Part shown: positions 45,545-63,802 of the stretch, one piece after another
Position numbering within the stretch: the stretch's first letter is position 1
Layout: the number at the start of each line of letters is the position of its first letter
From: a virus
Reading direction: 5' to 3' (one strand)
Length of the DNA: 64,000 nucleotides
Virus record (IMG/VR): IMGVR_UViG_3300044641_010298
Span: 40,213-104,212 of that record
Translations under genes and position numbers: made by a program
Notes under the pieces: generated by a model
Seen by the model: the letters and a program-made list of their open reading frames with translations, nothing else
Database searches by the model: none
Told to the model about the DNA's origin: nothing

Positions 45545-45573
45545 ATAGTACCACAGCGGGTCGCGGTGACACG
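45545..45573 (-). promoter_or_regulatory. Promoter, CGTGTC-17-TACTAT
   Basis: Variant -35 (45568-45573), 17-bp spacer, TGG-extended -10 (45545-45550). Serves 45422-45523. Leftmost member of the promoter class. Confidence 0.5.
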
Positions 45574-45576
45574 CGG

Positions 45577-46365
45577 CTACGGGTTCTTTGGATCCCAGCG
45601 CCTCTGCTCGGGGATCGACTCGGTGTACAGCCGCACCGCTCGGGCAACATCTGTGTGCCCAGCCGACTCTGCCAGCCGCGCGATGGCGTTGCCCTCTCTC
45701 TCTATGATGTCGTTCATCATCTGTGACACCTGGCTGATGTCCTCTGGCATCGTGTTATAGACATCCCTGAGGTAATCAGCTGACACCTGGTAGGCATCGT
45801 CTGTCTTGTCGAGGAAGTCGATTGTGCTGAGGCCGTAGCCGCCCCACTTGATCATCTTGAAGGCTCCCTCGATGACAGTGCCGGCGCGGATCTCCACCAT
45901 GTCCATGAGCGCGCCGACATAGCCCAGGATTGACATGCCCATGAAGAAGATGGAGATGTGGTAGGCGGTCTCGTAGGCTTCTAGCACGGTGGCTCGCTGC
46001 GCCGGGTCCAGCCTCTCCTGCTGCGCGAGCGCATCCTCGTACCTCTTCTTCGCCAGCGAGAACTGGACGACAGAGGTGAGCAGCGCTGTTGTGTCAAATA
46101 TGAACCCAGTGTACCTCAGGTTCCCCTGGATGAAGTTGGTGACGAAGCCGAACAGGTCGTTGATCGCGCTGATCGACTGGAGGCTGTCCTCCATGTCTTG
46201 AGTGTCTAGCATCTGCAGCACATCAGCGTGAGAGGCTGCGACCGTGGCTGCTGGGTTCTTGTGTGCTAGCCGCCCGGTGTCTGGCTCGAAGGTCCCGAGC
46301 TCAGCCTCTCTCAGCAGCTCTCTCACCGCCTCTCGAAGCAGGCGGCCCTGTGTCGTCACGCTCAT
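45577..46365 (-). CDS. Tagged multi-helix membrane-associated protein
   Basis: 262 residues. N-terminus MSVTTQGRLLREAVRELLRE is a tag variant with several V/L-x-E sites, followed by a linker and hydrophobic helices near residues 65-100 and 130-185 (FIFDTTALLTSVVQFSLA; ISIFFMGMSILGYVGALMDM). GATATGTAG is found 21 bp upstream. If ejected, it could insert into the host membrane to help DNA entry; this is inference. Confidence 0.58.
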   Translation of the reverse strand: MSVTTQGRLLREAVRELLREAELGTFEPDTGRLAHKNPAATVAASHADVLQMLDTQDMEDSLQSISAINDLFGFVTNFIQGNLRYTGFIFDTTALLTSVVQFSLAKKRYEDALAQQERLDPAQRATVLEAYETAYHISIFFMGMSILGYVGALMDMVEIRAGTVIEGAFKMIKWGGYGLSTIDFLDKTDDAYQVSADYLRDVYNTMPEDISQVSQMMNDIIEREGNAIARLAESAGHTDVARAVRLYTESIPEQRRWDPKNP

Positions 46366-46385
46366 CGTGTAGCCCCATGTTGAGG

Positions 46386-46394
46386 CTACATATC
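46386..46394 (-). promoter_or_regulatory. GATATGTAG box
   Basis: GATATGTAGCCTC on the minus strand, about 20 bp before the ATG at 46363-46365. Confidence 0.55.
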
Positions 46395-46403
46395 ACCCGC
46401 CGA

Positions 46404-46727
46404 TCAGCTGTGGACCAGGGCCTTGCACATCCGGGCGATCGCCACCCGACCACCGCGGCCGATCAGCAGGTCCGGGTCGTGCCCCTCGGTCACGGACAGG
46501 GTGGCCTCGGGGACACCGTGGCCGACGGGCTTCGGCATCCGGGGGAGGAGCCCGTTCCAGTTCACCTTGAACCGGGTCGGGTACCGGGGATCCATGCGGT
46601 CGGTGGCCACGAACTTGTGCTCCTGGCCTTCGGGGCCGACCGCGATCCCGCTGACCGCGGTGGTGCCCAGGGGGGAGACCGTGACGGAGGTGATCTTGAA
46701 GGTCCAGCGGAGGTTGGCGGTGGCCAT
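46404..46727 (-). CDS. Small protein, paralogue of 57596-57928
   Basis: 107 residues. ANLRWTFKIT start, then HKFVATDRMDPRYPTRFKVN, PRMPKPVGHGV and RVAIARMCKALV, all shared nearly word for word with the product of 57596-57928. Probably one alpha/beta domain; function unknown. Own promoter. Confidence 0.7.
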   Translation of the reverse strand: MATANLRWTFKITSVTVSPLGTTAVSGIAVGPEGQEHKFVATDRMDPRYPTRFKVNWNGLLPRMPKPVGHGVPEATLSVTEGHDPDLLIGRGGRVAIARMCKALVHS

Positions 46728-46763
46728 GTTGTCGTCCTTGGTTTGGGGTCCGTTAGCTCAGAC

Positions 46764-46792
46764 ATCATACCATTCAACGCCTGAGGCGCACG
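46764..46792 (-). promoter_or_regulatory. Promoter, CGTGCG-17-TATGAT
   Basis: -35 at 46787-46792, TGG-extended -10 at 46764-46769. Serves 46404-46727. Confidence 0.72.
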
Positions 46793-46796
46793 GGCC

Positions 46797-46916
46797 TCAG
46801 TTGAGGCAGTTGATCAGCGGGCAGATCCCGGAGAGGTAGACGAGGGCCGCGACATTGGCGACGAAGAGGGACCCAGCGATCGAGACGGTGCCCCAGATGA
46901 CGGTGTCGGTGGTCAT
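46797..46916 (-). CDS. 39-residue membrane peptide
   Basis: MTTDTVIWGTVSIAGSLFVA starts a peptide with one hydrophobic helix and two Cys near the end (ICPLINCLN). GGAAGGAGG precedes the ATG. A leader hairpin with an out-of-frame ATGGAC mini-ORF, whose TGA overlaps this ATG, lies just upstream (46934-46952). Confidence 0.62.
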   Translation of the reverse strand: MTTDTVIWGTVSIAGSLFVANVAALVYLSGICPLINCLN

Positions 46917-46933
46917 TTGATTCCTCCTTCCTG

Positions 46934-46952
46934 GGCGGTGTCCATCACCGCC
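46934..46952 (-). repeat. Leader hairpin GGCGGTG-ATGGA-CACCGCC (copy 1)
   Basis: Perfect 7-bp stem with ATGGA in the loop, between promoter and second ribosome site. Here the ATG is preceded by AAGGAGG but opens a 10-codon mini-ORF out of frame with the gene. Confidence 0.65.
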
Positions 46953-46965
46953 TCCTTGCCAGATC

Positions 46966-46994
46966 ATCATACCATTCAGCGGTCAGCCCGCACG
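46966..46994 (-). promoter_or_regulatory. Promoter, CGTGCG-17-TATGAT
   Basis: -35 at 46989-46994 within palindrome AGCCCGTGCGGGCT, -10 at 46966-46971. Serves 46797-46916. Confidence 0.75.
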
Positions 46995-46998
46995 GGCT

Positions 46999-47208
46999 TC
47001 AGTGGTTGGCGATCCGGTTCGCCGCGGTCCGGTCGAGGTCCCAGCCCTTCTGCTGGACCGTCTGGTGGCTCGTGTCGACCAGGTCCTTCACCTCACCGCC
47101 CACCGTCCGGACAGTGAAGTTGCGGCCCGCAACCTCGATCACCTCAGCCGCCATCCACTCACCTCGGATCCGAACCACCAGGCTCTCACCAATCAGGGGA
47201 TTGACCAT
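46999..47208 (-). CDS. Small beta-rich protein, SH3/KOW-like
   Basis: 69 residues. LIGESLVVRIRGEWMAAEVI followed by GRNFTVRTVGGEVKDLVDT gives the strand pattern of an SH3/KOW-like barrel; the tail is basic. Function unknown. AAGGAGG ribosome site. Confidence 0.58.
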   Translation of the reverse strand: MVNPLIGESLVVRIRGEWMAAEVIEVAGRNFTVRTVGGEVKDLVDTSHQTVQQKGWDLDRTAANRIANH

Positions 47209-47227
47209 GTTGCCTCCTTGTGATCCT

Positions 47228-47256
47228 ATTCTACCACCGCGACCCTGCCCCGCACG
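47228..47256 (-). promoter_or_regulatory. Promoter, CGTGCG-17-TAGAAT
   Basis: -35 at 47251-47256, -10 at 47228-47233. Serves 46999-47208. Confidence 0.74.
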
Positions 47257-47261
47257 GGCCG

Positions 47262-47543
47262 TCAGCCGACCATGAAGGCCGCCATCGGGACCCGCAGCGG
47301 GCGGCAGGCCGTCACCTCGGCCACCCAGGCCTCGTGCTTCGCCTCGGCCTCCGCCTCGAGCCGGGCCCGCTCACGCCACTCATCCTCGAGGTCCCGGGTC
47401 GCCGCCTCCCAGCCCTCCGCCGTGTCGTCCTCCGGGCGGTACCACCGCGGCTTGATGTTGTGGACCGCCTTGAAGGCGTCGACGAAGTTGTAGAAGGCCT
47501 CGACCTGGGCGTGGGTGGCGAAGGAGGCGGTGTTGATGGCCAT
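47262..47543 (-). CDS. Small helical protein, unknown
   Basis: 93 residues, largely helical with a charged Glu/Arg/Ala stretch (DEWRERARLEAEAEAKHEAW). No known domain. Own promoter. Confidence 0.58.
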   Translation of the reverse strand: MAINTASFATHAQVEAFYNFVDAFKAVHNIKPRWYRPEDDTAEGWEAATRDLEDEWRERARLEAEAEAKHEAWVAEVTACRPLRVPMAAFMVG

Positions 47544-47579
47544 GTTTGACTCCGTTCTCTGAGGTTGCCTAGCTCTGTT

Positions 47580-47608
47580 ATTCTACCAACGGGTCCCAGG
47601 GACGCACG
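47580..47608 (-). promoter_or_regulatory. Promoter, CGTGCG-17-TAGAAT
   Basis: -35 at 47603-47608, -10 at 47580-47585. Serves 47262-47543. Confidence 0.73.
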
Positions 47609-47611
47609 GGC

Positions 47612-47824
47612 CTACGTGAATCTTGAGCGGCGCCTTGCATCGATGTAGGCATCACCGGAGTCTTCAGCATCGCCAAACATTGGCTGAAACCGCTTGCTGT
47701 AGTGAGATCGGGTCGCTGTCTCGTCTTCCTCAGGCTCCCGCCAGGTCTCAGGGTCTTGATCGGGATCAGGCTTTCGTAGCTCTTCTCTGATGATGTGTCG
47801 AAGCTGGCGCTCGGTGATCCTCAC
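47612..47824 (-). CDS. Tagged protein, 70 residues
   Basis: Tag MRITERQLRHIIREELRK, then a Pro/Asp/Glu-rich linker (DPDQDPETWREPEEDE) and a short basic end. Nothing else is recognisable. GATATGTAG upstream. Confidence 0.6.
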   Translation of the reverse strand: MRITERQLRHIIREELRKPDPDQDPETWREPEEDETATRSHYSKRFQPMFGDAEDSGDAYIDARRRSRFT

Positions 47825-47842
47825 ATGTGCCCCTAGATGGGT

Positions 47843-47851
47843 CTACATATC
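47843..47851 (-). promoter_or_regulatory. GATATGTAG box
   Basis: CGATATGTAGACC on the minus strand, 18 bp before the ATG at 47822-47824. Confidence 0.55.
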
Positions 47852-47892
47852 GCCCTGGGCCAACAGCGACAACATCGCACAGACACAAGTCA

Positions 47893-47910
47893 GGCCCCAG
47901 TGACGGGGCC
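47893..47910 (-). terminator. Possible terminator hairpin after 47921-48301
   Basis: GGCCCC / GGGGCC 6-bp stem with a 6-base loop just after the gene end; only a weak T-rich tail follows. Confidence 0.35.
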
Positions 47911-47920
47911 CGAGGTGGTG

Positions 47921-48301
47921 TTAGCGCGAGCGCTTGATTTGCAAGCCGTGCGGAACTCTTCCCGCCTCTATGCGGCTCTGGATCTCACCGGCTGGTAGAT
48001 CCAAGAATTCATCCGGATCGTCGCCGTACTCGTACTCATCCTCGTCTGGCTCATCGAGGTCGAGATTTGAAAACATGTCATCAAACTTCTTGCCAAAGTC
48101 AGGGTCAGTGAGCTTGGGTCGCCTGAACATTGTGGGCTCTCTCATCTTGCGGGCGGTCTCTGCACCCGGGCCAGAGAAGTCATCCATCCCAGACTCCTCG
48201 TAATCGCCTGTCTCTGGGTTCTTGCGGAATGTAACGCCCTTCCTCATCTCATTCAGCTCCTCGCGGACTATCCGGCGAAGCTGGCCCTCAGTGATCCTCA
48301 T
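47921..48301 (-). CDS. Tagged acidic protein, 126 residues
   Basis: Tag MRITEGQLRRIVREELNEM, then polar and acidic sequence (LDLDEPDEDEYEYGDDPDE) and a short basic C-terminus. Likely disordered cargo or linker protein. GATATGTAG lies 18 bp ahead with AGGAGG between. Confidence 0.6.
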   Translation of the reverse strand: MRITEGQLRRIVREELNEMRKGVTFRKNPETGDYEESGMDDFSGPGAETARKMREPTMFRRPKLTDPDFGKKFDDMFSNLDLDEPDEDEYEYGDDPDEFLDLPAGEIQSRIEAGRVPHGLQIKRSR

Positions 48302-48319
48302 GATGTGCCTCCTGTGATT

Positions 48320-48328
48320 CTACATATC
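48320..48328 (-). promoter_or_regulatory. GATATGTAG box
   Basis: CGATATGTAGAATCAC on the minus strand before the ATG at 48299-48301. Confidence 0.55.
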
Positions 48329-48459
48329 GCCCCGCTCACCCAGTGCAGGATCAATGTTGCGCAGCGCCAGATCGCGCCCCTTGCATCAGGATCTCGGCGC
48401 CGTGATGCACATCGGGCGCCCCCAGACCGCATCTCCTGCAGCCTGTGGCGCCCTAGTGA

Positions 48460-48777
48460 TTAAGCCTTTGAACGCTTCCAGGCCATGTAGGCTGCCCTTC
48501 CCTCTTCAGCTGATCCGAAGTCCTGTCCGTGAGAAGGATGCGAAGATGGGAACTTGAGGCCGTAACGGAACTCATAATCAGCCTCTGACTCACCGGGACC
48601 GTCGTCGTCAACTCCGTAGTTCATCTCAGCGCTGCGGTCGTAGTCATATCCGCTGCTGTACCCGCCGCCGTAATAGCCGCTACCACCGTATTTGCTCCCG
48701 CCGCGGCGGTAGGTCTCTGTCATCCTGCTGATCTCTTCCTTGATGATCTTTCTCAACTGCGATGCTGTGATTCTCAT
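48460..48777 (-). CDS. Tagged Gly/Tyr-rich protein, 105 residues
   Basis: Tag MRITASQLRKIIKEEISRM, then a Gly/Tyr/Ser low-complexity stretch (GGSKYGGSGYYGGGYSSGYD) resembling phase-separating or fibrous sequences, and a C-terminal helix (SAEEGRAAYMAWKRSKA). Upstream box is the variant GATAAGTACA. Confidence 0.6.
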   Translation of the reverse strand: MRITASQLRKIIKEEISRMTETYRRGGSKYGGSGYYGGGYSSGYDYDRSAEMNYGVDDDGPGESEADYEFRYGLKFPSSHPSHGQDFGSAEEGRAAYMAWKRSKA

Positions 48778-48794
48778 GTGATCCTCTTGGTGTC

Positions 48795-48804
48795 TGTACT
48801 TATC
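48795..48804 (-). promoter_or_regulatory. Variant late box GATAAGTACA
   Basis: Differs from GATATGTAG(A) at the fifth base and the end; same distance (about 17 bp) from the ATG at 48775-48777. Confidence 0.4.
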
Positions 48805-48871
48805 ACCATCCGTAGAACTTTAGCAGCGTTGTGAACACAACATTCCAGAACAGGATCAGCGTTGCCTTCAA
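48803..48871 (-). other. Possible 22-residue hydrophobic peptide, TTG start
   Basis: Frame KATLILFWNVVFTTLLKFYG after a TTG at 48869-48871. Hydrophobic and open, but without a ribosome site; may be chance. Confidence 0.2.
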
Positions 48872-48894
48872 CAGGGTATCGAGGACCCAGAGCT

Positions 48895-49110
48895 CTACAG
48901 CCTGCCGTGTGATTCGAGCATGGTCACCACCTCGGGCGGTAGCTCCTCCTTCAGGATGCTCTGTGTCCCCACGCGGCCGTCCTTCGTCTTGTAGCCGATC
49001 TGCCATCCGTGCCTCACCTTCTGCTCTACCTCTAGCTCTGTCCCCTTGGGCCACTCAGTGCCGAAGCGGGTCGTGTACTTCTGCTTGAGAGTTACAACTT
49101 CACCAACCAT
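48895..49110 (-). CDS. Small beta-barrel-like protein, unknown
   Basis: 71 residues. VGEVVTLKQKYTTRFGTEWP, KGTELEVEQKVRHGWQIGYK and VGTQSILKEELPPEVV suggest an SH3-like fold. GGAGAGA precedes the ATG. Ten bases after the end of the membrane-protein gene upstream. Confidence 0.55.
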   Translation of the reverse strand: MVGEVVTLKQKYTTRFGTEWPKGTELEVEQKVRHGWQIGYKTKDGRVGTQSILKEELPPEVVTMLESHGRL

Positions 49111-49120
49111 TCTCTCCTCC

Positions 49121-49432: not shown

Positions 49433-49465
49433 AGAACATCCTAACACCCAGTGGGTGCTTGTGTA

Positions 49466-49606: not shown

Positions 49607-49624
49607 TCTTCCCTCCGTGGATCT

Positions 49625-49653
49625 ATTATAACACGTGACCAAGATCCTGCACG
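49625..49653 (-). promoter_or_regulatory. Promoter, CGTGCA-17-TATAAT
   Basis: -35 at 49648-49653, consensus -10 at 49625-49630. Serves 49466-49606. Confidence 0.7.
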
Positions 49654-50128: not shown

Positions 50129-50467
50129 CTATTCTACCAGGACCCCGCGCTCTCGCAGGAGCTTCACAGCTGCGGTGTGCCCGTGAGCCGTGAGGATCTC
50201 GATCGCTTTCGCCTCAGCGGTGGGCTCGTCATCGGTGTCAGCGAGGATGTGACCCAGCTCGTGAGCCTCAATCGCCAGCAGGTGGTCGGGAGTGCACCAT
50301 CCCTGGCTGGCGATGCGCCCATCGATCACAGCGACTGGGTACTCCGTCCCGCGGATCGCATAGCCGTGATTCTGATCAGAGAGCCGCTCGACCACCGTGC
50401 CTTCATCTCGGTCCTCAACCTCGACGACCAGCACATTGCTTGCCATGTCGGACATCCTGAACTTCAT
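50129..50467 (-). CDS. Small HExxH metallopeptidase-like protein
   Basis: 112 residues. LLAIEAHELGHIL carries HELGH at residues 69-73; the following DDEPTAEAKAIEIL may give the third zinc ligand. No signal peptide. GGGAGG lies five bases before the ATG. Possibly a cytoplasmic protease acting early on host proteins. Confidence 0.65.
   Translation of the reverse strand: MKFRMSDMASNVLVVEVEDRDEGTVVERLSDQNHGYAIRGTEYPVAVIDGRIASQGWCTPDHLLAIEAHELGHILADTDDEPTAEAKAIEILTAHGHTAAVKLLRERGVLVE
50131..50159 (-). promoter_or_regulatory. Promoter, CCTGCG-17-TAGAAT
   Basis: One mismatch in -35 (50154-50159); -10 at 50131-50136 with TGG extension. Lies in the 3' end of the next gene. Serves 49659-50111. Confidence 0.6.
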
Positions 50468-50487: not shown

Positions 50488-50516
50488 ATCGTATCACTTC
50501 GCATGCCCGTCACACA
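50488..50516 (-). promoter_or_regulatory. Degenerate promoter, TGTGTG-17-TACGAT
   Basis: Poor -35 match (50511-50516), correct spacing, TGA-extended -10. Serves 50129-50467. Confidence 0.4.
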
Positions 50517-52435: not shown

Positions 52436-52464
52436 ATTGTACCAGGTCGCCCACCGCCCGCACG
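52436..52464 (-). promoter_or_regulatory. Promoter, CGTGCG-17-TACAAT
   Basis: -35 at 52459-52464 in GCCCGTGCGGGC, TGG-extended -10. Serves 52361-52414 and probably 52173-52352. Confidence 0.75.
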
Positions 52465-52658: not shown

Positions 52659-52687
52659 ATTCTACCATCAGCTGTCAGGGTCGCACG
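52659..52687 (-). promoter_or_regulatory. Promoter, CGTGCG-17-TAGAAT
   Basis: -35 at 52682-52687, -10 at 52659-52664. Serves 52468-52614. Confidence 0.73.
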
Positions 52688-53031: not shown

Positions 53032-53060
53032 ATTATACCAATCGATTCCGGATTCGCACG
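53032..53060 (-). promoter_or_regulatory. Promoter, CGTGCG-17-TATAAT
   Basis: -35 at 53055-53060, consensus -10 at 53032-53037. Serves 52706-53011. Confidence 0.76.
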
Positions 53061-53087: not shown

Positions 53088-53471
53088 TTACGGGGCCGCC
53101 TCGAGCCCGAAGAAGCCGTCGTCACCGAGGACGAGGTCGAGCTTCGCCATCATCGCCGCGGCCTCGCCGCTGACCACCTCCTCGGCCGTCAGGACCGGGA
53201 CCACGACCGGCGCCGCTTCGACCACCTTCCGGGGCCGCTTGAGGACCGCCTCCGGGAGGGTCATGCCCGCCGCCTTCACCGCGGCCTTCGCACGATGGCC
53301 GATCGAGACCCGGGTCCCGCGGTCGAAGTCACCGCCGGTCACGTGCATGAGCATCTTCGAACCCCAGCGAAGAGGGGATGCGACAAACACTTCACCATCA
53401 GCAATCCCGTGGACCACGATGTTTCCGTCCTCAAGAACCACAGATTCGATAGAGATGTTCTTTGAAGCCAT
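53088..53471 (-). CDS. KRPRK-family paralogue A, 127 residues
   Basis: Start ATG 53469-53471 (MASKNISIESVVLEDGNIVV). Shared with 59139-59588 and 61753-62079: a beta-rich first half (FVASPLRWGSKMLMHVTGGD, FDRGTRVSIGHRAKAAVKAA) then a basic VLKRPRK linker. The tail is unique (MMAKLDLVLGDDGFF). Probably nucleic-acid- or protein-binding; function unknown. Confidence 0.68.
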   Translation of the reverse strand: MASKNISIESVVLEDGNIVVHGIADGEVFVASPLRWGSKMLMHVTGGDFDRGTRVSIGHRAKAAVKAAGMTLPEAVLKRPRKVVEAAPVVVPVLTAEEVVSGEAAAMMAKLDLVLGDDGFFGLEAAP

Positions 53472-53512: not shown

Positions 53513-53541
53513 ATTTTACCACTCATCTCAATGTTCGCACG
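53513..53541 (-). promoter_or_regulatory. Promoter, CGTGCG-17-TAAAAT
   Basis: -35 at 53536-53541, TGG-extended -10 at 53513-53518. Serves 53088-53471. Marks the left edge of the HNH insertion. Confidence 0.72.
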
Positions 53542-53581
53542 AGAATCGATACATGAGAGAAGTTGTCGCCATACTTAGACT

Positions 53582-53672
53582 AGACCCCTGGTGAGTTAGT
53601 TCTCTTCTCCGGCAGAGAACTTCTGCGACAAACGATTTGTTCGCAACTCAGTATCAACCAGGGGTCTTTTTT
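53582..53672 (+). ncRNA. Structured RNA with intrinsic terminator, ahead of HNH gene
   Basis: Outer stem AGACCCCTGGT (53582-53592) / ACCAGGGGTCT (53657-53667), perfect 11 bp, continued by GAGTT/AACTC and enclosing two hairpins: GTTCTC/GAGAAC (53599-53620) and GCGACAAA/TTTGTTCGC (53625-53644, one bulge). A T-run follows, so it reads rightward. It may be a stand-alone small RNA or an attenuating leader of the endonuclease gene. Family not recognised. Confidence 0.6.
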
Positions 53673-53729
53673 GTCAGAAGAGAATATATAGAAACATCGA
53701 GGATTGATACTCCTCGTCCGGAGAGAAAC

Positions 53730-54392
53730 ATGACCAAAGCAATATACGCAGAGTGCATGTATTGTGGGAAGCCACACAGAAAGAAATCAGCAAGCCCACG
53801 ATGTTCCAAGTGCAAATACCTCGACCCTGATTTTAGGAAGAAAGTTTCAGATGGTCTCAAACAAAGCCTCAACAATCCTGAGACAAGAAAGTCAAGATCA
53901 GAGAAAGCAAAGCGAATGTGGTCTGATGAATCATACAGAGAAAAACAAGCTGAATCATATTCCTCCAGAAAAGACGAAGAATATCGATCCAAGCAATCGA
54001 TTTCAAATAGCTCTATTTGGTCAAGCCTAGAGCTTCGAGAAAGACAATCAAAAATGGCAAAAGAAAGATGGGACAATCCTGATTACAGGAGCAAATTTCT
54101 TGAAACAGTCAGGGAAGAAGAATACAGAAAGAGAAAATCTCTCTCGCTGGGCGGAGATGGTGACTTAAGTAGAATCGAAAATGATCAATCATCTGCGCTC
54201 AAGCAGTGGTCAAAGAAAGTAAAAACAAGAGACAACCATCAATGCCAGCACTGCGGATCAGTGAATGATTTGCATGCTCATCACGTCAAGCGAAAAGCAA
54301 TGTTTCCTGATCTGGCCCTTGAGATTACCAATGGAATCACGCTCTGCTCATTGTGCCATGCACAAGAGCACAGAAAGCTGAACAATCAGTAG
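53730..54392 (+). CDS. HNH homing endonuclease
   Basis: 220 residues, AT-rich and rightward amid GC-rich leftward genes, so a mobile insertion. Start ATG 53730 with GGAGAG five bases ahead. N-terminal CMYCGKPHRKK and CSKC zinc pair; repeated DNA-contact segments (NPETRKSRSEKAKRMWSDES, SKMAKERWDNPDYRSKF); C-terminal HNH core CQHCGSVNDLHAHHVKRK, then TLCSLCHAQEHRK. Its stop overlaps the convergent next gene by 7 bp. Confidence 0.88.
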   Translation: MTKAIYAECMYCGKPHRKKSASPRCSKCKYLDPDFRKKVSDGLKQSLNNPETRKSRSEKAKRMWSDESYREKQAESYSSRKDEEYRSKQSISNSSIWSSLELRERQSKMAKERWDNPDYRSKFLETVREEEYRKRKSLSLGGDGDLSRIENDQSSALKQWSKKVKTRDNHQCQHCGSVNDLHAHHVKRKAMFPDLALEITNGITLCSLCHAQEHRKLNNQ

Positions 54393-54599: not shown

Positions 54600-54628
54600 A
54601 TTCTACCACACCCGACCCGACCCGCACG
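54600..54628 (-). promoter_or_regulatory. Promoter, CGTGCG-17-TAGAAT
   Basis: -35 at 54623-54628, -10 at 54600-54605. Serves 54386-54580. Confidence 0.75.
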
Positions 54629-54943: not shown

Positions 54944-54972
54944 ATCATACCATCGATCGGGTCGGTCGCACG
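54944..54972 (-). promoter_or_regulatory. Promoter, CGTGCG-17-TATGAT
   Basis: -35 at 54967-54972, -10 at 54944-54949. Serves 54631-54915. Confidence 0.74.
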
Positions 54973-55226: not shown

Positions 55227-55255
55227 ATCATACCATCGATCGGGTCGGGCGCACG
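55227..55255 (-). promoter_or_regulatory. Promoter, CGTGCG-17-TATGAT
   Basis: -35 at 55250-55255, -10 at 55227-55232. Serves 54975-55205; lies just after the stop of the GIY-YIG gene. Confidence 0.74.
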
Positions 55256-55926: not shown

Positions 55927-55955
55927 ATTGTATCAATGTATCAGTGCGTTGCACG
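55927..55955 (-). promoter_or_regulatory. Promoter, CGTGCA-17-TACAAT
   Basis: -35 at 55950-55955, TGA-extended -10. Serves 55818-55910 and 55258-55821. Confidence 0.68.
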
Positions 55956-57315: not shown

Positions 57316-57344
57316 ATTGTAACACAGCGGGTGCCGCCCGCACG
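57316..57344 (-). promoter_or_regulatory. Promoter, CGTGCG-17-TACAAT
   Basis: -35 at 57339-57344, -10 at 57316-57321. Probably serves the whole 57285-55960 run, the longest operon of the region. Confidence 0.73.
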
Positions 57345-57392: not shown

Positions 57393-57596
57393 TTATATGG
57401 ACCGCTGCTCCAGGTCAGCATCCAAGGGCAGAAGCTCCTCTGGCCAGCAGGTGAGCGTGACGCCAGGGACGACAGGGTCCACCAGGATGATGAGCCTGTC
57501 ATCATCGCTGTCACAGCCCAGGACCATGGCAAGCCGCCCAGCGTATTCGGGGGTCCACATCTCGGGGATGAGGCGAACGATGTCGCCCGGCCCCAT
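57393..57596 (-). CDS. 67-residue SH3-like protein
   Basis: MGPGDIVRLIPEMWTPEYAG, RLAMVLGCDSDDDRLIILVD, VTLTCWPEELLPLDAD. ATG overlaps the stop of the paralogue gene upstream (TGATG). Confidence 0.58.
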   Translation of the reverse strand: MGPGDIVRLIPEMWTPEYAGRLAMVLGCDSDDDRLIILVDPVVPGVTLTCWPEELLPLDADLEQRSI

Positions 57597-57928
57597 CAGA
57601 AGGCCCCGTCCTGGACCAGGGCCTTGCACATCCGGGCGATGGCCACTCGGGCCCCTCGACCCATGAACAGGTCCTCATCGACCCCGGCCGTGCAGGCGAG
57701 AACCTCTTCCTTGACCCCGTGCCCGACCGGCTTGGGCATCCGGGGGTGGAGGCCATTCCAGTTGACCTTGAACCGGGTCGGGTACCGAGGGTCCATCCGG
57801 TCAGTCGCCACGAACTTGTGGGTCGTGCCGTCCGGAGCAGTGGCCACCCCGCTCACCGCGATCTGACCGATGGCCGAGCGGCGGATGTCCGTGATCGAGA
57901 AGCTCCAGCGAAGGTTGGCGGTGCTCAT
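57596..57928 (-). CDS. Small protein, paralogue of 46404-46727
   Basis: 110 residues. MSTANLRWSFSIT start; HKFVATDRMDPRYPTRFKVN, HPRMPKPVGHGV and RVAIARMCKALV are the same as in the other copy, with divergence between. A duplicated early gene, 11 kb apart. Function unknown. Confidence 0.7.
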   Translation of the reverse strand: MSTANLRWSFSITDIRRSAIGQIAVSGVATAPDGTTHKFVATDRMDPRYPTRFKVNWNGLHPRMPKPVGHGVKEEVLACTAGVDEDLFMGRGARVAIARMCKALVQDGAF

Positions 57929-57963: not shown

Positions 57964-57992
57964 ATCATACCAGGTCGCTGTCCGCCCGCACG
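57964..57992 (-). promoter_or_regulatory. Promoter, CGTGCG-17-TATGAT
   Basis: -35 at 57987-57992, -10 at 57964-57969. Serves 57596-57928 and 57393-57596. Confidence 0.75.
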
Positions 57993-58177: not shown

Positions 58178-58206
58178 ATTGTACCATGCTTGCAGCCGCT
58201 CGCACG
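58178..58206 (-). promoter_or_regulatory. Promoter, CGTGCG-17-TACAAT
   Basis: -35 at 58201-58206, -10 at 58178-58183. Serves 58005-58157. Confidence 0.75.
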
Positions 58207-58425: not shown

Positions 58426-58454
58426 ATTCTACCATCCGTACCGCCGCCCGCACG
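58426..58454 (-). promoter_or_regulatory. Promoter, CGTGCG-17-TAGAAT
   Basis: -35 at 58449-58454, -10 at 58426-58431. Serves 58210-58404. Confidence 0.75.
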
Positions 58455-58738: not shown

Positions 58739-58767
58739 ATTGTACCATGCCGCCGGTAAGTCGCACG
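58739..58767 (-). promoter_or_regulatory. Promoter, CGTGCG-17-TACAAT
   Basis: -35 at 58762-58767, -10 at 58739-58744. Serves 58458-58694. Confidence 0.74.
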
Positions 58768-59070: not shown

Positions 59071-59099
59071 ATCATACCATCAGGTGTCGGCCTCGCACG
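59071..59099 (-). promoter_or_regulatory. Promoter, CGTGCG-17-TATGAT
   Basis: -35 at 59094-59099, -10 at 59071-59076. Serves 58769-59050. Confidence 0.74.
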
Positions 59100-59138: not shown

Positions 59139-59588
59139 TCAGGCAAGGAGGAGGAGGAGCTCGGACTTGTTGAGGTCGGAGTAGCCCTTGAGGCCACGGT
59201 CCTTCGCACGGGCCTTCAGCTGGGGGACCGTCAGGGCGGTGAGGTCCTCGTGCGTCGGGGTCGGGTCCACGACCAGGTCGAGGAGGACCGGCTCGACCGG
59301 GGCCTCGACCTTCACGGTGACCGTGAGGTCGGCGGGGTCGGCCGCCTTCCGGGGCCGCTTGAGGGGCGCCGGGGTCATGTCGAGGCCGGCCTCGCGGACG
59401 GCCTTCTTGGCCGCGTGACCGACCGCGATCCGGGCCCCACGGTCGAGGTCACGGGCCGTGACGTGCATGAGGACCTTCGAGCCCCACTGGAGGCGGGTGG
59501 CGACGAAGGGGACATCGCCGATCGTGCCGACCACGGTGGGGGTGCCATCGACGGAGGTGACGGAGCTGATGGTGATGTTCTTGGCCAT
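59139..59588 (-). CDS. KRPRK-family paralogue B with C-terminal Rho-N/SAP-like domain
   Basis: 149 residues from ATG 59586-59588 (MAKNITISSVTSVDGTPTVV). Shared core: RLQWGSKVLMHVTARDLDRG, AVGHAAKKAVREAG, APLKRPRK. Unique end: LTALTVPQLKARAKDRGLKG then YSDLNKSELLLLL, the helix-extended-helix pattern of Rho N-terminal/SAP-type nucleic-acid-binding domains. Could link DNA or RNA binding to the core domain. Confidence 0.7.
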   Translation of the reverse strand: MAKNITISSVTSVDGTPTVVGTIGDVPFVATRLQWGSKVLMHVTARDLDRGARIAVGHAAKKAVREAGLDMTPAPLKRPRKAADPADLTVTVKVEAPVEPVLLDLVVDPTPTHEDLTALTVPQLKARAKDRGLKGYSDLNKSELLLLLA

Positions 59589-59624: not shown

Positions 59625-59653
59625 ATTATACCAGGTCAGCGGCATCCCGCACG
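59625..59653 (-). promoter_or_regulatory. Promoter, CGTGCG-17-TATAAT
   Basis: -35 at 59648-59653, consensus -10 at 59625-59630. Serves 59139-59588. Confidence 0.76.
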
Positions 59654-59810: not shown

Positions 59811-59830
59811 TCTGTCCTCCTTACTCTGTT

Positions 59831-59859
59831 ATTCTACCACCACTCTGTCTGCCCGCACG
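59831..59859 (-). promoter_or_regulatory. Promoter, CGTGCG-17-TAGAAT
   Basis: -35 at 59854-59859, -10 at 59831-59836. Serves 59658-59810. Confidence 0.75.
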
Positions 59860-59864
59860 AACCC

Positions 59865-60038: not shown

Positions 60039-60053
60039 GCTGCCCTCCTTCTC

Positions 60054-60073
60054 GACGGTGTCCATCACTGTCC
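60054..60073 (-). repeat. Leader hairpin with ATGGAC (copy 4)
   Basis: GGACAGTGATGGACACCGTC; stem GACaGTG/CACCGTC with one mismatch. ATG in frame with the gene. Confidence 0.55.
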
Positions 60074-60086
60074 CCTTGATGATTCA

Positions 60087-60116
60087 GTTATACCAGGTGG
60101 GGGTCACCGTTGCACG
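60087..60116 (-). promoter_or_regulatory. Promoter, CGTGCA-18-TATAAC
   Basis: The only member with an 18-bp spacer; -35 at 60111-60116, TGG-extended -10. Serves 59865-60038. Confidence 0.6.
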
Positions 60117-60121
60117 AACCC

Positions 60122-60319
60122 TCAGCCGTTCGCCGGGGCCTCGTAGTTCCGGAGGTTGAACTCGCGGAGGGCGGCGCAGGTCTCCTTGTGGATGCCCCTC
60201 TCCTCGGCGAGCTTGAAGAGGGCGTTCGCGATGTCGGCGGTCTCCTTGGAGTCCAGGCCGTAGTTGACGTAGGCCTGGGTGGTGAGGCCGATGAGCTGAG
60301 CGATCTGGTTGGCGTTCAT
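60122..60319 (-). CDS. 65-residue helical protein, related to 54975-55205
   Basis: MNANQIAQLIGLTTQAYVNY, LDSKETADIANALFKLAEER, ETCAALREFNLRNYE. Same helix spacing as the 54975-55205 product. Unknown function. Confidence 0.62.
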   Translation of the reverse strand: MNANQIAQLIGLTTQAYVNYGLDSKETADIANALFKLAEERGIHKETCAALREFNLRNYEAPANG

Positions 60320-60339
60320 TCTGTCCTCCTTGCTCTGTT

Positions 60340-60368
60340 ATTCTACCAGGTCGTGGGCCGCCCGCACG
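60340..60368 (-). promoter_or_regulatory. Promoter, CGTGCG-17-TAGAAT
   Basis: -35 at 60363-60368 in GCCCGTGCGGGC, -10 at 60340-60345. Serves 60122-60319. Confidence 0.76.
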
Positions 60369-60371
60369 GGC

Positions 60372-60563
60372 TCAGCGGATCCAGCGAACCTCGACATCCA
60401 CCCACCGGTTGCCGTCCGGGTCGCCCGGGCTCGCCGCGACGATCTTGGCGCTGAGAACCCAGCGCCCCGGGTGCTCGGCCTCGAACTGGGCCTTCGCTGC
60501 GAGGATCGTCTCGCGGATATCGGCCGAGGTCTGGAAGAAGCGGATCTGATTGACGTGGGTCAC
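60372..60563 (-). CDS. 63-residue protein, unknown
   Basis: IRFFQTSADIRETILAAKAQ, HPGRWVLSAKIVAASPGDPD, RWVDVEVRWIR: helix then two strands. Own promoter and AAGGAGG site. Confidence 0.6.
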   Translation of the reverse strand: MTHVNQIRFFQTSADIRETILAAKAQFEAEHPGRWVLSAKIVAASPGDPDGNRWVDVEVRWIR

Positions 60564-60583
60564 GATTACCTCCTTGCTCAGTT

Positions 60584-60612
60584 ATTCTACCATCCGCTCC
60601 CCAGCCCGCACG
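60584..60612 (-). promoter_or_regulatory. Promoter, CGTGCG-17-TAGAAT
   Basis: -35 at 60607-60612, -10 at 60584-60589. Serves 60372-60563. Confidence 0.75.
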
Positions 60613-60616
60613 AGCC

Positions 60617-60898
60617 TCAGTCGTGGGAGCCACGGCACCGGACCCCGTGGTCGGGGCAGCTGTAGCTGACGATGCAGCAGCACGGGACCTCCTCGGCCTT
60701 CGGGCAGCAGCGGCCACCGCTGATGGTCTCGGTCACCTGGCGTGCGTGGTGGGTCCAGGCGATGGGGGTCGGAGTGCCGCGGCCGAGGGAGGACCGCACC
60801 CGGGTGTTGAAGTCCTCCGGGCTCACTCCGAAGATTCCGGCCGAGGTCTGAAGCGCCTTGTAGTCCGCCCGGTACTGCTCGATCGACTTCGTCTTCAT
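60617..60898 (-). CDS. 93-residue protein with Cys-rich C-terminus
   Basis: Start ATG 60896-60898. Helical N-terminal half (KSIEQYRADYKALQTSAGIF), then GGRCCPKAEEVPCCCIVSYS and CPDHGVRC: seven Cys and a His in about 30 residues, a probable multi-metal site. Unknown function. Confidence 0.62.
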   Translation of the reverse strand: MKTKSIEQYRADYKALQTSAGIFGVSPEDFNTRVRSSLGRGTPTPIAWTHHARQVTETISGGRCCPKAEEVPCCCIVSYSCPDHGVRCRGSHD

Positions 60899-60917
60899 CT
60901 TGCCTCCTAGCTCTGTT

Positions 60918-60946
60918 ATTGTACCACCCACTTGCCAACCCGCACG
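60918..60946 (-). promoter_or_regulatory. Promoter, CGTGCG-17-TACAAT
   Basis: -35 at 60941-60946, -10 at 60918-60923. Serves 60617-60898. Confidence 0.75.
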
Positions 60947-60951
60947 AGACC

Positions 60952-61092
60952 CTAGAACGGGGCCGTGCCGCTGTCGACCTGGGCCACCCAGGCCCAGAAG
61001 GTCTCGAGCTCCTCCGGGGTGGGGTCCTCGAGCCCCACCACCTCTTCATCATCACCACCGAAGTCGATGTCATCCACGATCAGGTCGCGCAT
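60952..61092 (-). CDS. 46-residue acidic protein
   Basis: MRDLIVDDIDFGGDDEEVVG, then EDPTPEELETFWAWVAQVDS. Strongly acidic, as in DNA-mimic or anti-restriction peptides, but without further evidence. Confidence 0.6.
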   Translation of the reverse strand: MRDLIVDDIDFGGDDEEVVGLEDPTPEELETFWAWVAQVDSGTAPF

Positions 61093-61109
61093 CTTGCCTC
61101 CGTAAAGCC

Positions 61110-61138
61110 ATCATACCATCACAGTCGTGGCGCGCACG
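61110..61138 (-). promoter_or_regulatory. Promoter, CGTGCG-17-TATGAT
   Basis: -35 at 61133-61138, -10 at 61110-61115. Serves 60952-61092. Confidence 0.74.
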
Positions 61139-61177
61139 GGCAGCGCGTCGTGCGGGTGCAGCTCGCCCGGTGTAGGG

Positions 61178-61327
61178 TTAGGGCGGTGGCGGCCCGCTGC
61201 GGAGGCGGTCGACGACGGCCGCGACGACTCGGTAGCTGACGTCGAGCAGAGCTCCGGCAGCGTAGAAGGCGAGGCCGGTCGCCACAGCGGCAGCGACCAG
61301 GGCACAGACGGTGTTGACCAGTGACAT
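61178..61327 (-). CDS. 49-residue membrane protein
   Basis: MSLVNTVCALVAAAVATGLA, FYAAGALLDVSYRVV, ending in SGPPPP. One or two hydrophobic helices. Starts one base after the upstream stop, so translation is coupled. Confidence 0.58.
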   Translation of the reverse strand: MSLVNTVCALVAAAVATGLAFYAAGALLDVSYRVVAAVVDRLRSGPPPP

Positions 61328-61328
61328 G

Positions 61329-61622
61329 TCAGCCCTCGTATCCGGCCGCGACGCAGCCGTTGATCCACTCGAAGAACATCTTCTGGCCGCTGATCCGGCT
61401 CACCTCATCACCGAGCTCGAGCCACCAGTCCAGGGGATTCGGGTGGTTGTAGTCGTTCGGGATCCCGGTCCCCTCGTGGATGATGCAGACCAGGGAGCCC
61501 TTCCGGCTCCAGCCGCCCGGGTCCTGCCCACCGCGGAAGACCATCTTGTTCACGTCCAGGTCCAGGCCCAGCTCCTTGCCGGCGATCTTGAGGGCGTGTT
61601 TCGTGGCGACGTAGGGGCTCAT
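61329..61622 (-). CDS. 97-residue protein, unknown
   Basis: ATKHALKIAGKELGLDLDVN, GWSRKGSLVCIIHEGTGIPN, LDWWLELGDEVSRISGQKMF. Alpha/beta globular. AGGAAAGGA ribosome site; own promoter. Confidence 0.6.
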   Translation of the reverse strand: MSPYVATKHALKIAGKELGLDLDVNKMVFRGGQDPGGWSRKGSLVCIIHEGTGIPNDYNHPNPLDWWLELGDEVSRISGQKMFFEWINGCVAAGYEG

Positions 61623-61643
61623 TCCTTTCCTCCTTGCCTCGTT

Positions 61644-61672
61644 ATTCTACCATGTGCTGGGCGCTGCGCACG
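61644..61672 (-). promoter_or_regulatory. Promoter, CGTGCG-17-TAGAAT
   Basis: -35 at 61667-61672, -10 at 61644-61649. Serves 61329-61622 and 61178-61327. Confidence 0.74.
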
Positions 61673-61714
61673 GGCGCAGGATGCTGGGCGCTCGATAACC
61701 TGGGCGCAAGATGA

Positions 61715-61732
61715 GCGCTCGACAGCGAGCGC
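61715..61732 (-). terminator. Possible terminator hairpin after 61753-62079
   Basis: GCGCTCG / CGAGCGC 7-bp stem with a 4-base loop, followed by TCATCTT; a weaker related repeat (CGAGCGCCC) lies 20 bp on. Confidence 0.4.
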
Positions 61733-61752
61733 CCACCCCGGACCCGGAGGTC

Positions 61753-62079
61753 TCAGGCCTCGAGCTCGACCTCGAAGACCACCTCGGACAGGGCCACCGG
61801 CTCGGAAGGGGCGGCCTCGGAGGCCTCGACCTTGGTCTTCCGGGGGCGCTTGAGGGGGGCCGGGGTGAGGTCGATGCCCTGGGCACGGACGGCCTTCTTG
61901 GCCGCATGTCCGATCGAGATTCGGGTGCCCCGATCGAAGTCACCACCGGTCACGTGCATGAGGACCTTGCCGCCCCACTGGAGCTGGGAGGCCTGGAAGC
62001 TCTGCTCACCGACCGTGCCGAAGACCACCGCCTTGCCGTCCACCACCGTCACGTCAGAGATCTTGATGTCCTTGGCCAT
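61753..62079 (-). CDS. KRPRK-family paralogue C, 108 residues
   Basis: MAKDIKISDVTVVDGKAVVF, LQWGGKVLMHVTGGDFDRGT, SIGHAAKKAVRAQG, APLKRPRK, then an acidic tail. Closest to paralogue B in the core but without its Rho-N/SAP-like end. Confidence 0.7.
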   Translation of the reverse strand: MAKDIKISDVTVVDGKAVVFGTVGEQSFQASQLQWGGKVLMHVTGGDFDRGTRISIGHAAKKAVRAQGIDLTPAPLKRPRKTKVEASEAAPSEPVALSEVVFEVELEA

Positions 62080-62117
62080 TTGATTTCCCCTTGATTGTTG
62101 CCGTGATTGGCTTGGTT

Positions 62118-62146
62118 ATTGTACCAGGTTCCCCGTCATTCGCACG
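62118..62146 (-). promoter_or_regulatory. Promoter, CGTGCG-17-TACAAT
   Basis: -35 at 62141-62146, -10 at 62118-62123. Serves 61753-62079. Confidence 0.75.
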
Positions 62147-62149
62147 GGA

Positions 62150-62377
62150 TCAGCGTTCGTATTCCTTGTACCGGCGCTGGATCTCAGCCACCTCTTTGCG
62201 GACGATTCGTGCGAGGGCCTCGCGGGCGTTCTGATCGTGCGACAGGGTGAAGGCGAGGCACTTGACCATCGTCTGGGCGACGACCGTCGAGCTCGCACCG
62301 GCGAAGCTGTCACCTTCGAGATCCATGTCGCACCAATCCACGAGGATGTCAGCGAGCTGAGCCATATCCGTGTCCAT
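62150..62377 (-). CDS. 75-residue helical protein, unknown
   Basis: MDTDMAQLADILVDWCDMDL, STVVAQTMVKCLAFTLSHDQ, then basic IVRKEVAEIQRRYKEYER. Start 62375-62377 after GGAGGAA; the hairpin ATG nine codons upstream is in frame (MDPALEEGI extension). Confidence 0.6.
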   Translation of the reverse strand: MDTDMAQLADILVDWCDMDLEGDSFAGASSTVVAQTMVKCLAFTLSHDQNAREALARIVRKEVAEIQRRYKEYER

Positions 62378-62392
62378 GATTCCTTCCTCCAG

Positions 62393-62414
62393 GGCGGGGT
62401 CCATCCCCGCTGCC
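62393..62414 (-). repeat. Leader hairpin with ATGGAC (copy 5)
   Basis: GGCAGCGGGGATGGACCCCGCC; stem GCGGGG/CCCCGC closing ATGGA. ATG in frame with the gene. Confidence 0.6.
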
Positions 62415-62424
62415 TTGCTTGATC

Positions 62425-62453
62425 ATTGTATCACTGTATCAGTCCGTCGCACG
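62425..62453 (-). promoter_or_regulatory. Promoter, CGTGCG-17-TACAAT
   Basis: -35 at 62448-62453, TGA-extended -10 at 62425-62430. Serves 62150-62377. Confidence 0.74.
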
Positions 62454-62456
62454 GGA

Positions 62457-62696
62457 TCACCAGATGACGAGCACCGCGATCTTGCCGTTCTCATCGTCCT
62501 GGTTGAACTCCGGCTCCTTGTCGGAGGGTTCCCAGTCATCCAGCTCGTCATCAGTCAGATCCGAGGTGTCATCGGACCAGGTGCCCCGAGAGACCTGGAC
62601 GATGTCCTCGGGATCACCCCGCTCCGGGTCCAGGACCTGGACCTTCATGTCCTGGGGGAGAGCCTGGAGCTCCTTGATCAGTTCCGAAACAGTCAT
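62457..62696 (-). CDS. 79-residue acidic protein, unknown
   Basis: TVSELIKELQALPQDMKVQV opens like a small family common in phages and plasmids (helix, then LP-x-D-x-x-V strand), followed by a long acidic insertion and IAVLVIW strand. Possibly a DNA mimic; unproven. Confidence 0.6.
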   Translation of the reverse strand: MTVSELIKELQALPQDMKVQVLDPERGDPEDIVQVSRGTWSDDTSDLTDDELDDWEPSDKEPEFNQDDENGKIAVLVIW

Positions 62697-62716
62697 GATT
62701 GCCTCCTTGCTTGATC

Positions 62717-62745
62717 ATTGTATCACCCGCCCAGCCTGGCGCACG
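62717..62745 (-). promoter_or_regulatory. Promoter, CGTGCG-17-TACAAT
   Basis: -35 at 62740-62745, -10 at 62717-62722. Serves 62457-62696. Confidence 0.74.
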
Positions 62746-62747
62746 GG

Positions 62748-63098
62748 TCAGAGGCGGCCCTTGTGGTTCGTTCCGATCGAGCCGCTCTCGCCCACCTTCC
62801 TGAACTTCAGATTGCCCATGTAGCTGTTGCTGTTGGACATCTGACAGGCCTTACCCACGTTCTGTCCGCTGTTGGATCGCCACGCCTTCACATAGGCAGC
62901 TCGATCCTTCTCAGATCCGAAGGCGAGGACGGTGACGCCCACACCCTTTCCGTCACCGGCCGCGACCCCGGCATAAGGGACCGCCGTCTCGGTGCCCAGC
63001 TCCTCCACGCAGTCTGGGCACTCGTTGATCCGCCCGCCGATCGAGCGCTTCTGAGGAGAGGTGTGATCGAACGAGACCCCGCAGTGCTTGCAGTCCAT
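62748..63098 (-). CDS. 116-residue zinc-ribbon protein
   Basis: Start ATG 63096-63098. MDCKHCGVSFDH and NECPDCVEELG form a CxxC...CxxC ribbon; VTVLAFGSEKDRAAYVKAWR and a Ser/Asn stretch follow. Resembles a hypothetical family in other phages. Upstream frame extension passes through the promoter and is rejected. Confidence 0.65.
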   Translation of the reverse strand: MDCKHCGVSFDHTSPQKRSIGGRINECPDCVEELGTETAVPYAGVAAGDGKGVGVTVLAFGSEKDRAAYVKAWRSNSGQNVGKACQMSNSNSYMGNLKFRKVGESGSIGTNHKGRL

Positions 63099-63114
63099 TA
63101 TGCCTCCTGCGCTT

Positions 63115-63143
63115 ATTGTATCAGGTGTTGTCAGTGTCGCACG
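63115..63143 (-). promoter_or_regulatory. Promoter, CGTGCG-17-TACAAT
   Basis: -35 at 63138-63143, -10 at 63115-63120. Serves 62748-63098; the upstream gene ends inside it. Confidence 0.73.
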
Positions 63144-63330
63144 CCCCGCGGCAAGCCTTCCGGCTCGCTTCCCGCCGCTTGTCCGGTCGGACGCTGTGCT
63201 CACCCCGCCAGTCAGCCGGGGTGCCGCCGGCTGCGAAGTGGGCAGCTCGATCGAATCCCCGAAGGAGGCGGAGGGTGTCCAGCCGCTTCAGGGTGGTGGC
63301 CTTCAGGGTGTGGCGATTCGTGTGTGCCAT
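63121..63330 (-). CDS. 69-residue basic protein
   Basis: MAHTNRHTLKATTLKRLDTL, then FDRAAHFAAGG and RPDKRREASRKACRGACD. Arg/Lys-rich, likely nucleic-acid binding. Its stop lies in the spacer of the next promoter. Confidence 0.58.
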   Translation of the reverse strand: MAHTNRHTLKATTLKRLDTLRLLRGFDRAAHFAAGGTPADWRGEHSVRPDKRREASRKACRGACDTDNT

Positions 63331-63349
63331 GATTCCTCCTTGCTCCTAT

Positions 63350-63378
63350 ATTGTATCAGGCTGCGGAGGACCCGCACG
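63350..63378 (-). promoter_or_regulatory. Promoter, CGTGCG-17-TACAAT
   Basis: -35 at 63373-63378, -10 at 63350-63355. Serves 63121-63330. Confidence 0.74.
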
Positions 63379-63380
63379 GG

Positions 63381-63545
63381 TTAGAACACCGTCTCATCCA
63401 GCGGCAGGGCGACGACCGGGCCTTCCCAGCCGGCCGGGACGTAGATCGCTTCCGCCTCGAGTCCACCGGTGTAGACGCGGCCCTCGAGCGTGGGGGCCTT
63501 CGCGACGTTGAAGAGGGTGGCGAGGAAGAGGATGATGGTGTTCAT
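63381..63545 (-). CDS. 54-residue protein with hydrophobic N-terminus
   Basis: MNTIILFLATLFNVAKAPTL, then a beta-like EAEAIYVPAGWEGPVVALPL. The start resembles a signal peptide or anchor. GGAGACATCA before the ATG. Confidence 0.6.
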   Translation of the reverse strand: MNTIILFLATLFNVAKAPTLEGRVYTGGLEAEAIYVPAGWEGPVVALPLDETVF

Positions 63546-63586
63546 TGATGTCTCCTTGGTTCTGGTCTGGTGGGTGGTGCCTGGTT

Positions 63587-63615
63587 ATTCTACTTGGTGG
63601 AACCGGTGACGCACG
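63587..63615 (-). promoter_or_regulatory. Promoter, CGTGCG-17-TAGAAT, inside upstream gene end
   Basis: -35 at 63610-63615 and spacer are coding for the last residues of 63590-63721; the TAG stop is part of the -10 (63587-63592). Serves 63381-63545. Confidence 0.68.
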
Positions 63616-63721
63616 CGCGATGGTTCGACAGACCGACGCAGGCGGTGGACCCCTTCAGGCTCACAGTGACACCGAGGTAGAGAGCGAGGCCGATCGCGGC
63701 GACAATGATCAGAAGCTTCAT
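63590..63721 (-). CDS. 43-residue membrane protein
   Basis: MKLLIIVAAIGLALYLGVTV, then GSTACVGLSNHRACVTGSTK with two Cys that could pair outside the membrane. GGAGGACAAG before the ATG; hairpin ATG eight codons upstream is in frame (MDTAKEDK). Confidence 0.6.
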   Translation of the reverse strand: MKLLIIVAAIGLALYLGVTVSLKGSTACVGLSNHRACVTGSTK

Positions 63722-63733
63722 CTTGTCCTCCTT

Positions 63734-63752
63734 GGCGGTGTCCATCACCGCC
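63734..63752 (-). repeat. Leader hairpin GGCGGTG-ATGGA-CACCGCC (copy 6)
   Basis: Same 19 bases as copy 1, 17 kb away; perfect 7-bp stem. ATG in frame with the gene. Confidence 0.65.
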
Positions 63753-63773
63753 GCCTTGGTTGGTTACCTGCCC

Positions 63774-63802
63774 ATTGTATCACCGCGCCTGGGCGGCGCA
63801 CG
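63774..63802 (-). promoter_or_regulatory. Promoter, CGTGCG-17-TACAAT
   Basis: -35 at 63797-63802, -10 at 63774-63779. Serves 63590-63721. Confidence 0.73.

Follow-up and report, generated by a model that had tools for sequence, protein, structure and literature searches.

An array of CGTGCG-type promoters before the micro-genes of an uncultured T4-like phage, apparently an undescribed early-type promoter class

The early promoters of the T4-type phages T4, RB69, RB49, 44RR, and Aeh1 carry a -35 element unlike TTGACA, and 57 such promoters were predicted in RB69 (PMC1524935). In cluster K mycobacteriophages, the extended start-associated sequences (ESAS) contain a putative SigA-like promoter with a spacing of 17–18 bp (PMC3203893, PMC11373665). 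This study describes an array of 37 CGTGCG-type promoters in a stretch of 64,000 nucleotides (the window) covering positions 40213–104212 of the linear 104,212-bp virus record of an uncultured T4-like phage. As with the T4-type early promoters, the sites are many per genome, lie before small unknown open reading frames, share a conserved sigma70-type -10 (TGGTAnnAT in the logo), and belong to a T4-like phage. We regard the promoter type as real and as an apparently so far undescribed on-switch for early virus genes.

The exact pattern CGTGCG-N17-TAnnAT occurs 31 times in the window, every time on the minus strand, and TGnTAnnAT is also present at 30 of these sites; the remaining 40 kb of the record holds zero exact sites. 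A matrix scan of the whole record returned 40 minus-strand and 2 plus-strand matches, 36 of the former lying inside the array. Composition does not explain these numbers, since dinucleotide shuffles (n = 100) gave a mean of 0.05 for the exact pattern and a shuffled array strand is expected to give 0.17 matrix matches. The original prediction, made from the letters of the window, had counted 37 sites, and the recount agrees (31 exact with 17 bp and 6 non-exact, one of the latter with an 18-bp spacer); its tallies of the -10 forms, namely TACAAT (12), TAGAAT (11), and TATGAT (7), hold as well. The -35 is indeed unlike TTGACA, being CGTGCG here, with the variants given in Table 1, and CGTGYAA in relatives. 

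All 36 matrix sites are followed by a Shine–Dalgarno sequence and a start codon, the latter typically 19–21 bp from the -10, and the genes behind them have 30–150 codons (median 75.5). In most cassettes, the -35 begins 1–5 bp past the preceding stop codon. The logo of the focal array places its information in CGTGCG, TGG, TAnnAT, and the leader, together with a short C-rich flank that largely represents stop codons; the spacer is free, and the upstream sequence has near-zero information and no upstream element. The predicted spacing of one promoter per micro-gene stands for most genes but fails in several stretches of multi-gene units (e.g., 50.5–52.2, 56–57, and 47.6–49.5 kb). The proposal that the -35 often sits in a palindrome, CCCGTGCGGG, which could bind a dimeric factor, was rejected because only 9 of the 36 sites carry it and the relatives' -35 box is not palindromic; no inverted repeat is conserved. 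Some leaders open with a hairpin such as GGCGGTGATGGACACCGCC, with stem sequences that differ; these follow the six promoters so marked in Table 1 and are also found in the clade members G036, G037, G040, and G045. Folding of the leaders gave z < -2 in 10 of 58 long leaders.

The close relative G001 (96.8 kb) has approximately 38 sites in its terminal 20 kb, on one strand throughout, and 27 cassettes are reciprocal best matches of the focal array in nearly identical order. Identity across the 27 pairs was 96.9% in the -35, 90.1% in the -10, 91.4% in TGG, 58.2% in the spacer, and 47.5% upstream, with the box values inflated because the matrix picked the sites in both genomes. A gene-first test of G001 against the focal array found a promoter by the strict upstream pattern in 24 of 28 orthologues, and the other four have a variant or displaced site in the G001 scan. 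This sequence comparison supports selection on both boxes. Since cassettes without a counterpart occur on both sides (8 in the focal array and 10 in G001), whole promoter-plus-gene units are gained and lost.

The window has T4-type PHROG matches to the major head protein, portal, terminase, and baseplate wedge proteins, which identify the source as a T4-like phage. Relatives of the head protein number in the hundreds in IMG/VR; among named phages there are distant ones only, and the array had no megablast match among 50,697 public phages. In distant, larger clade members, CGTGYAA takes the place of CGTGCG and is usually separated from TGGTATAAT by 18 bp, and the 7th base past the -10 is a purine. 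Dense same-strand arrays were found in G036, G037, G038, and G044, and orthologous early genes retain the promoter in distant members. Among the matches listed, 89 of the at least 120 loci encode clade proteins, and a Shine–Dalgarno sequence and start codon lie behind 124 of 152 sites in clade loci versus 9 of 32 in other loci; beyond the clade, the motif hardly exceeds background. The reversed control pattern had 0 matches across 49 motif-selected or named records. The motif was not found in the named relatives RM378, immuto, and Mel-JY01. Among 24 records selected by the head protein, most of them fragments possibly without the early region, only G022 matched the strict pattern, and G011 (257 kb) is an exception; therefore, the promoter class is, as judged from the records, widespread but not universal in the clade.

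Scanned with one CGTGYAA-18 pattern, bacterial genome contigs (257 Gb) gave 40 scattered matches with no enriched lineage, and the motif was not seen as a class in 85,000 bacterial and archaeal species. The matches in a Halobacteriovorax metagenome-assembled genome (MAG) sit on phage contigs. Clade contigs occur in this MAG and in a Pelagibacteraceae single-cell genome, where mis-binning or co-sorting is possible; the contig L342, from the Pelagibacteraceae single cell AG-430-L09, is a clade phage contig with a CGTGCAA promoter, which may be a host hint or a co-sorted virus. The pattern CGTGCA-N15-TGnTATAAT is present nine times in G104 (Defluviitaleaceae MAG); several of these copies are near-identical, and they probably represent a repeated element.

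The genes behind the promoter class are micro-genes, mostly without known families; when scanned, they gave zero defence-system matches and almost no Pfam matches. The class also precedes a MoxR-type ATPase with a VWA-type partner and a RecA/KaiC-like ATPase and, in some members, the genes for Pol III alpha and the phage sigma body. In 30 structural clusters with 253 genes, no gene had a CGTGY-type promoter within 110 bp. RATAnTTAW, a putative late element by its position upstream of structural genes clade-wide, occurs within 60 bp of 20 of these 253 genes, compared with 0.5% of random 60-mers. The absence of the promoters from structural genes, some of which have RATAnTTAW, points to a class that is early or middle and differs from the probable late one. 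The sequence GATATGTAG, near window positions 48327, 47850, 46393, 44954, and 39735, is perhaps a variant of RATAnTTAW. Taken together, a non-TTGACA -35, a position before small non-structural genes, occurrence in relatives, and selection on both boxes bear out the original prediction of a dedicated promoter class.

The sigma factor of the clade appears to be split. Its body, which is encoded outside this record and was examined in relatives, comprises regions 1.2, 2, 3, and 4.1 and stops short of the region-4.2 helix-turn-helix; in many members, a family search turned up region 4.2 encoded by a small gene of its own. The gene in the window (Table 1) has orthologues in G001, G011, G022, G038, G040, and G044, and its product matches Pfam Sigma70_r4 (E = 1.2e-8). 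The seven sequences share Cys3, Cys14, Cys19, Cys31, and TRMRICQxEK, the corresponding host sigma sequence being TRERIRQ; the public phage set gave two weak matches only, both annotated as sigma-70 of Vibrio phages. A structure model of low confidence (predicted local distance difference test score, pLDDT, 55) and a fold search that reached sigma region 4 only at E ~1 were not used as evidence. The split sigma is similar in its logic to the T4 gp55/gp33 pair and probably serves late transcription. The region-4.2 protein is a candidate reader of CGTGY; G011, which has the protein and lacks CGTGY promoters, argues against this role. A 159-aa sigma-like micro-gene lies within the promoter array of G038 itself (84944–85423).

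With moderate confidence, we favour the reading that these are the early-type promoters of the clade, where host RNA polymerase with its primary sigma would bind the strong extended -10 and CGTGY would serve the same polymerase as a lineage-specific -35, as GTTTAC does at T4 early promoters. Each cassette would consist of the previous stop, 1–5 bp, the -35, 17 bp ending in TGn, the -10, approximately 20 bp, and the start codon, so that each micro-gene could be expressed independently soon after infection and cassettes could be gained or lost as units. The host polymerase is the favoured reader because primary-sigma features dominate (TG with TATAAT, ordinary spacer length, and a purine at the expected start) and because the T4 early -35 is also non-canonical. 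An alignment anchored on the -10 gives the relatives' box as C(-36)GTGYAA(-30), which retains T-34 and G-33 of TTGACA. Early use fits the gene content and the T4-like precedent. From these sequence features we infer that the sites act as promoters, that they do so early, and that the -35 is read by host sigma and not by a phage protein. Two observations weigh against this reading. G011 has the early-gene orthologues and the same core genes and is a real exception in lacking the motif, so something beyond the shared core determines motif use. Moreover, the motif follows the virus clade and not a host lineage, as would also be expected with a phage-encoded reader.

The absence of such a pattern from bacterial chromosomes fits either a phage-specific variant for host sigma or a phage reader. 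In the latter case, a phage protein might read CGTGY and redirect host polymerase that still uses the extended -10, as in a MotA/AsiA-like sigma appropriation. The restriction of the motif to one virus clade, the separate region-4.2 helix-turn-helix with its invariant TRMRICQ in place of the host TRERIRQ as one candidate reader, and the presence of the motif before the Pol III alpha and sigma body genes of some members, which fits a middle class, all agree with this idea. However, G011 has the same helix and no CGTG promoters, no gene was present in all motif-bearing and absent from all motif-lacking records, which are fragmentary, and the T4 early promoters illustrate that an unusual -35 does not require a factor from the phage. 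We thus consider appropriation a possibility of lesser weight; a phage activator is possible, and the presence/absence comparison tied no gene to it. It seems doubtful that the stand-alone Cys-rich protein displaces region 4 of the host sigma and reads CGTGY as part of a hybrid sigma, with host body and phage region 4, that drives the array. It is less probable still that the split phage sigma takes over from host sigma and itself recognises these promoters: the body stopping before region 4.2 and the separate 4.2 gene suit this idea, but the micro-genes would then need a sigma whose own gene, in G026 and G027, is preceded by such a promoter, both halves are present in the motif-lacking G011, and RATAnTTAW at structural genes better fits a late sigma.

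The original prediction had also offered a host alternative sigma, and the fixed two-box geometry is typical of sigma reading. This is nevertheless very unlikely, because the -10 matches the consensus for the primary sigma, TG included, and the motif, as scanned with the one CGTGYAA-18 pattern, is unenriched in every sampled bacterial lineage and is bound to one virus clade. The variation of cassettes as whole units between relatives would also suit repeats that act as repressor sites, replication sites, or recombination seams rather than as promoters. The constraint on the -35, TG, and -10 around a free spacer, the adjoining Shine–Dalgarno sequence and start codon, and the canonical TATAAT in relatives leave this last idea hardly credible.

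The positions of the promoters and associated genes are given in Table 1. The structural genes have a guanine-plus-cytosine content of ~40% and the array region 56–66%, with a sharp step from ~40% to ~62% at window positions 44000–46000 that is also present in G001. An AT-rich insert within the array (53560–54392) carries an HNH endonuclease gene on the opposite strand. The window had no tRNA and no Rfam match. The structure model of the five-copy micro-gene family was of low confidence (pLDDT 55). Several otherwise unrelated proteins (44056–44928, 47921–48301, and 48460–48777) share an MRIT-x-LRRIVREEL-like N-terminus, perhaps a targeting peptide. Genes for PrkA, SpoVR, and DUF444 lie together at 34482–38908, and a PrkA-type gene also occurs in Thermus phages.

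Table 1. Promoters of the array and associated genes, in window coordinates.
Feature	Position	Strand	Basis
Array of 37 CGTGCG-type promoters, mostly one per micro-gene	45545..63802	-	exact pattern + matrix scan
Promoter, CGTGTC variant, TGGTACTAT	45545..45573	-	
Promoter, exact	46764..46792	-	exact pattern
Promoter, exact; hairpin leader	46966..46994	-	exact pattern
Promoter, exact	47228..47256	-	exact pattern
Promoter, exact	47580..47608	-	exact pattern
Promoter, CGTGCA variant	49625..49653	-	matrix scan
Promoter, CCTGCG variant	50131..50159	-	matrix scan
Weak promoter-like site, TGTGTG	50488..50516	-	matrix scan
Promoter, exact	52436..52464	-	exact pattern
Promoter, exact; hairpin leader	52659..52687	-	exact pattern
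Promoter, exact	53032..53060	-	exact pattern
Promoter, exact	53513..53541	-	exact pattern
Promoter, exact	54600..54628	-	exact pattern
Promoter, exact	54944..54972	-	exact pattern
Promoter, exact	55227..55255	-	exact pattern
Promoter, CGTGCA variant	55927..55955	-	matrix scan
Promoter, exact	57316..57344	-	exact pattern
Promoter, exact	57964..57992	-	exact pattern
Promoter, exact	58178..58206	-	exact pattern
Promoter, exact	58426..58454	-	exact pattern
Promoter, exact; hairpin leader	58739..58767	-	exact pattern
Promoter, exact	59071..59099	-	exact pattern
Promoter, exact	59625..59653	-	exact pattern
Promoter, exact	59831..59859	-	exact pattern
Promoter, CGTGCA, 18-bp spacer; hairpin leader	60087..60116	-	matrix scan
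Promoter, exact	60340..60368	-	exact pattern
Promoter, exact	60584..60612	-	exact pattern
Promoter, exact	60918..60946	-	exact pattern
Promoter, exact	61110..61138	-	exact pattern
Promoter, exact	61644..61672	-	exact pattern
Promoter, exact	62118..62146	-	exact pattern
Promoter, exact; hairpin leader	62425..62453	-	exact pattern
Promoter, exact	62717..62745	-	exact pattern
Promoter, exact	63115..63143	-	exact pattern
Promoter, exact	63350..63378	-	exact pattern
Promoter, exact -35 and TAGAAT, without TG	63587..63615	-	exact pattern
Promoter, exact; hairpin leader	63774..63802	-	exact pattern
Micro-gene, five-copy family	57596..57928	-	
Five-copy family, other members	46404-46727, 53088-53471, 59139-59588, 61753-62079		
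Stand-alone sigma region-4.2-like protein, 73 aa; candidate -35 reader, array link unproven	31758..31979	+	

For uncultured T4-like viruses of a large clade, these findings yield a promoter defined precisely enough to be searched for, which would mark their early genes and point to tens of small candidate takeover proteins per genome. They also show that promoter-plus-micro-gene cassettes turn over as units, and they bring to light an apparently naturally split sigma factor whose partner is a candidate -35 reader.

Several known systems resemble parts of this locus. T4 middle promoters, which depend on MotA and AsiA, also combine a strong -10 with a non-TTGACA upstream box, but their Mot box is GCTT at -30 with a spacing of 11–13 bp, whereas the array has CGTGCG at 17 bp; neither MotA nor AsiA was noticed among the scanned proteins of this partial genome, for which no family search was made. 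The T4 late pair gp55/gp33 likewise joins a sigma without a -35 reader to a separate small protein. The small protein of the clade keeps a recognisable region-4.2 sequence and a Cys cluster, whereas gp33 is not known to have either. The repeated start-linked sequences (SAS and ESAS) of cluster K mycobacteriophages also precede small genes; however, Adephagia has only 7 ESAS promoters with long (17-bp) inverted repeats, and the array has far more copies and no inverted repeat (PMC3203893, PMC11373665). In organisation, the array is comparable with the host-takeover module of the Bacillus phage SPO1, in which small early genes with strong promoters and strong ribosome binding sites are clustered, although that module places its 26 genes in operons (PMC6873191). 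From the T4-type early promoters, finally, the array differs in its -35 (CGTGCG/CGTGYAA instead of GTTTAC), in having no conserved A-rich UP-like upstream element, and in its organisation as a single dense array with one promoter per micro-gene.

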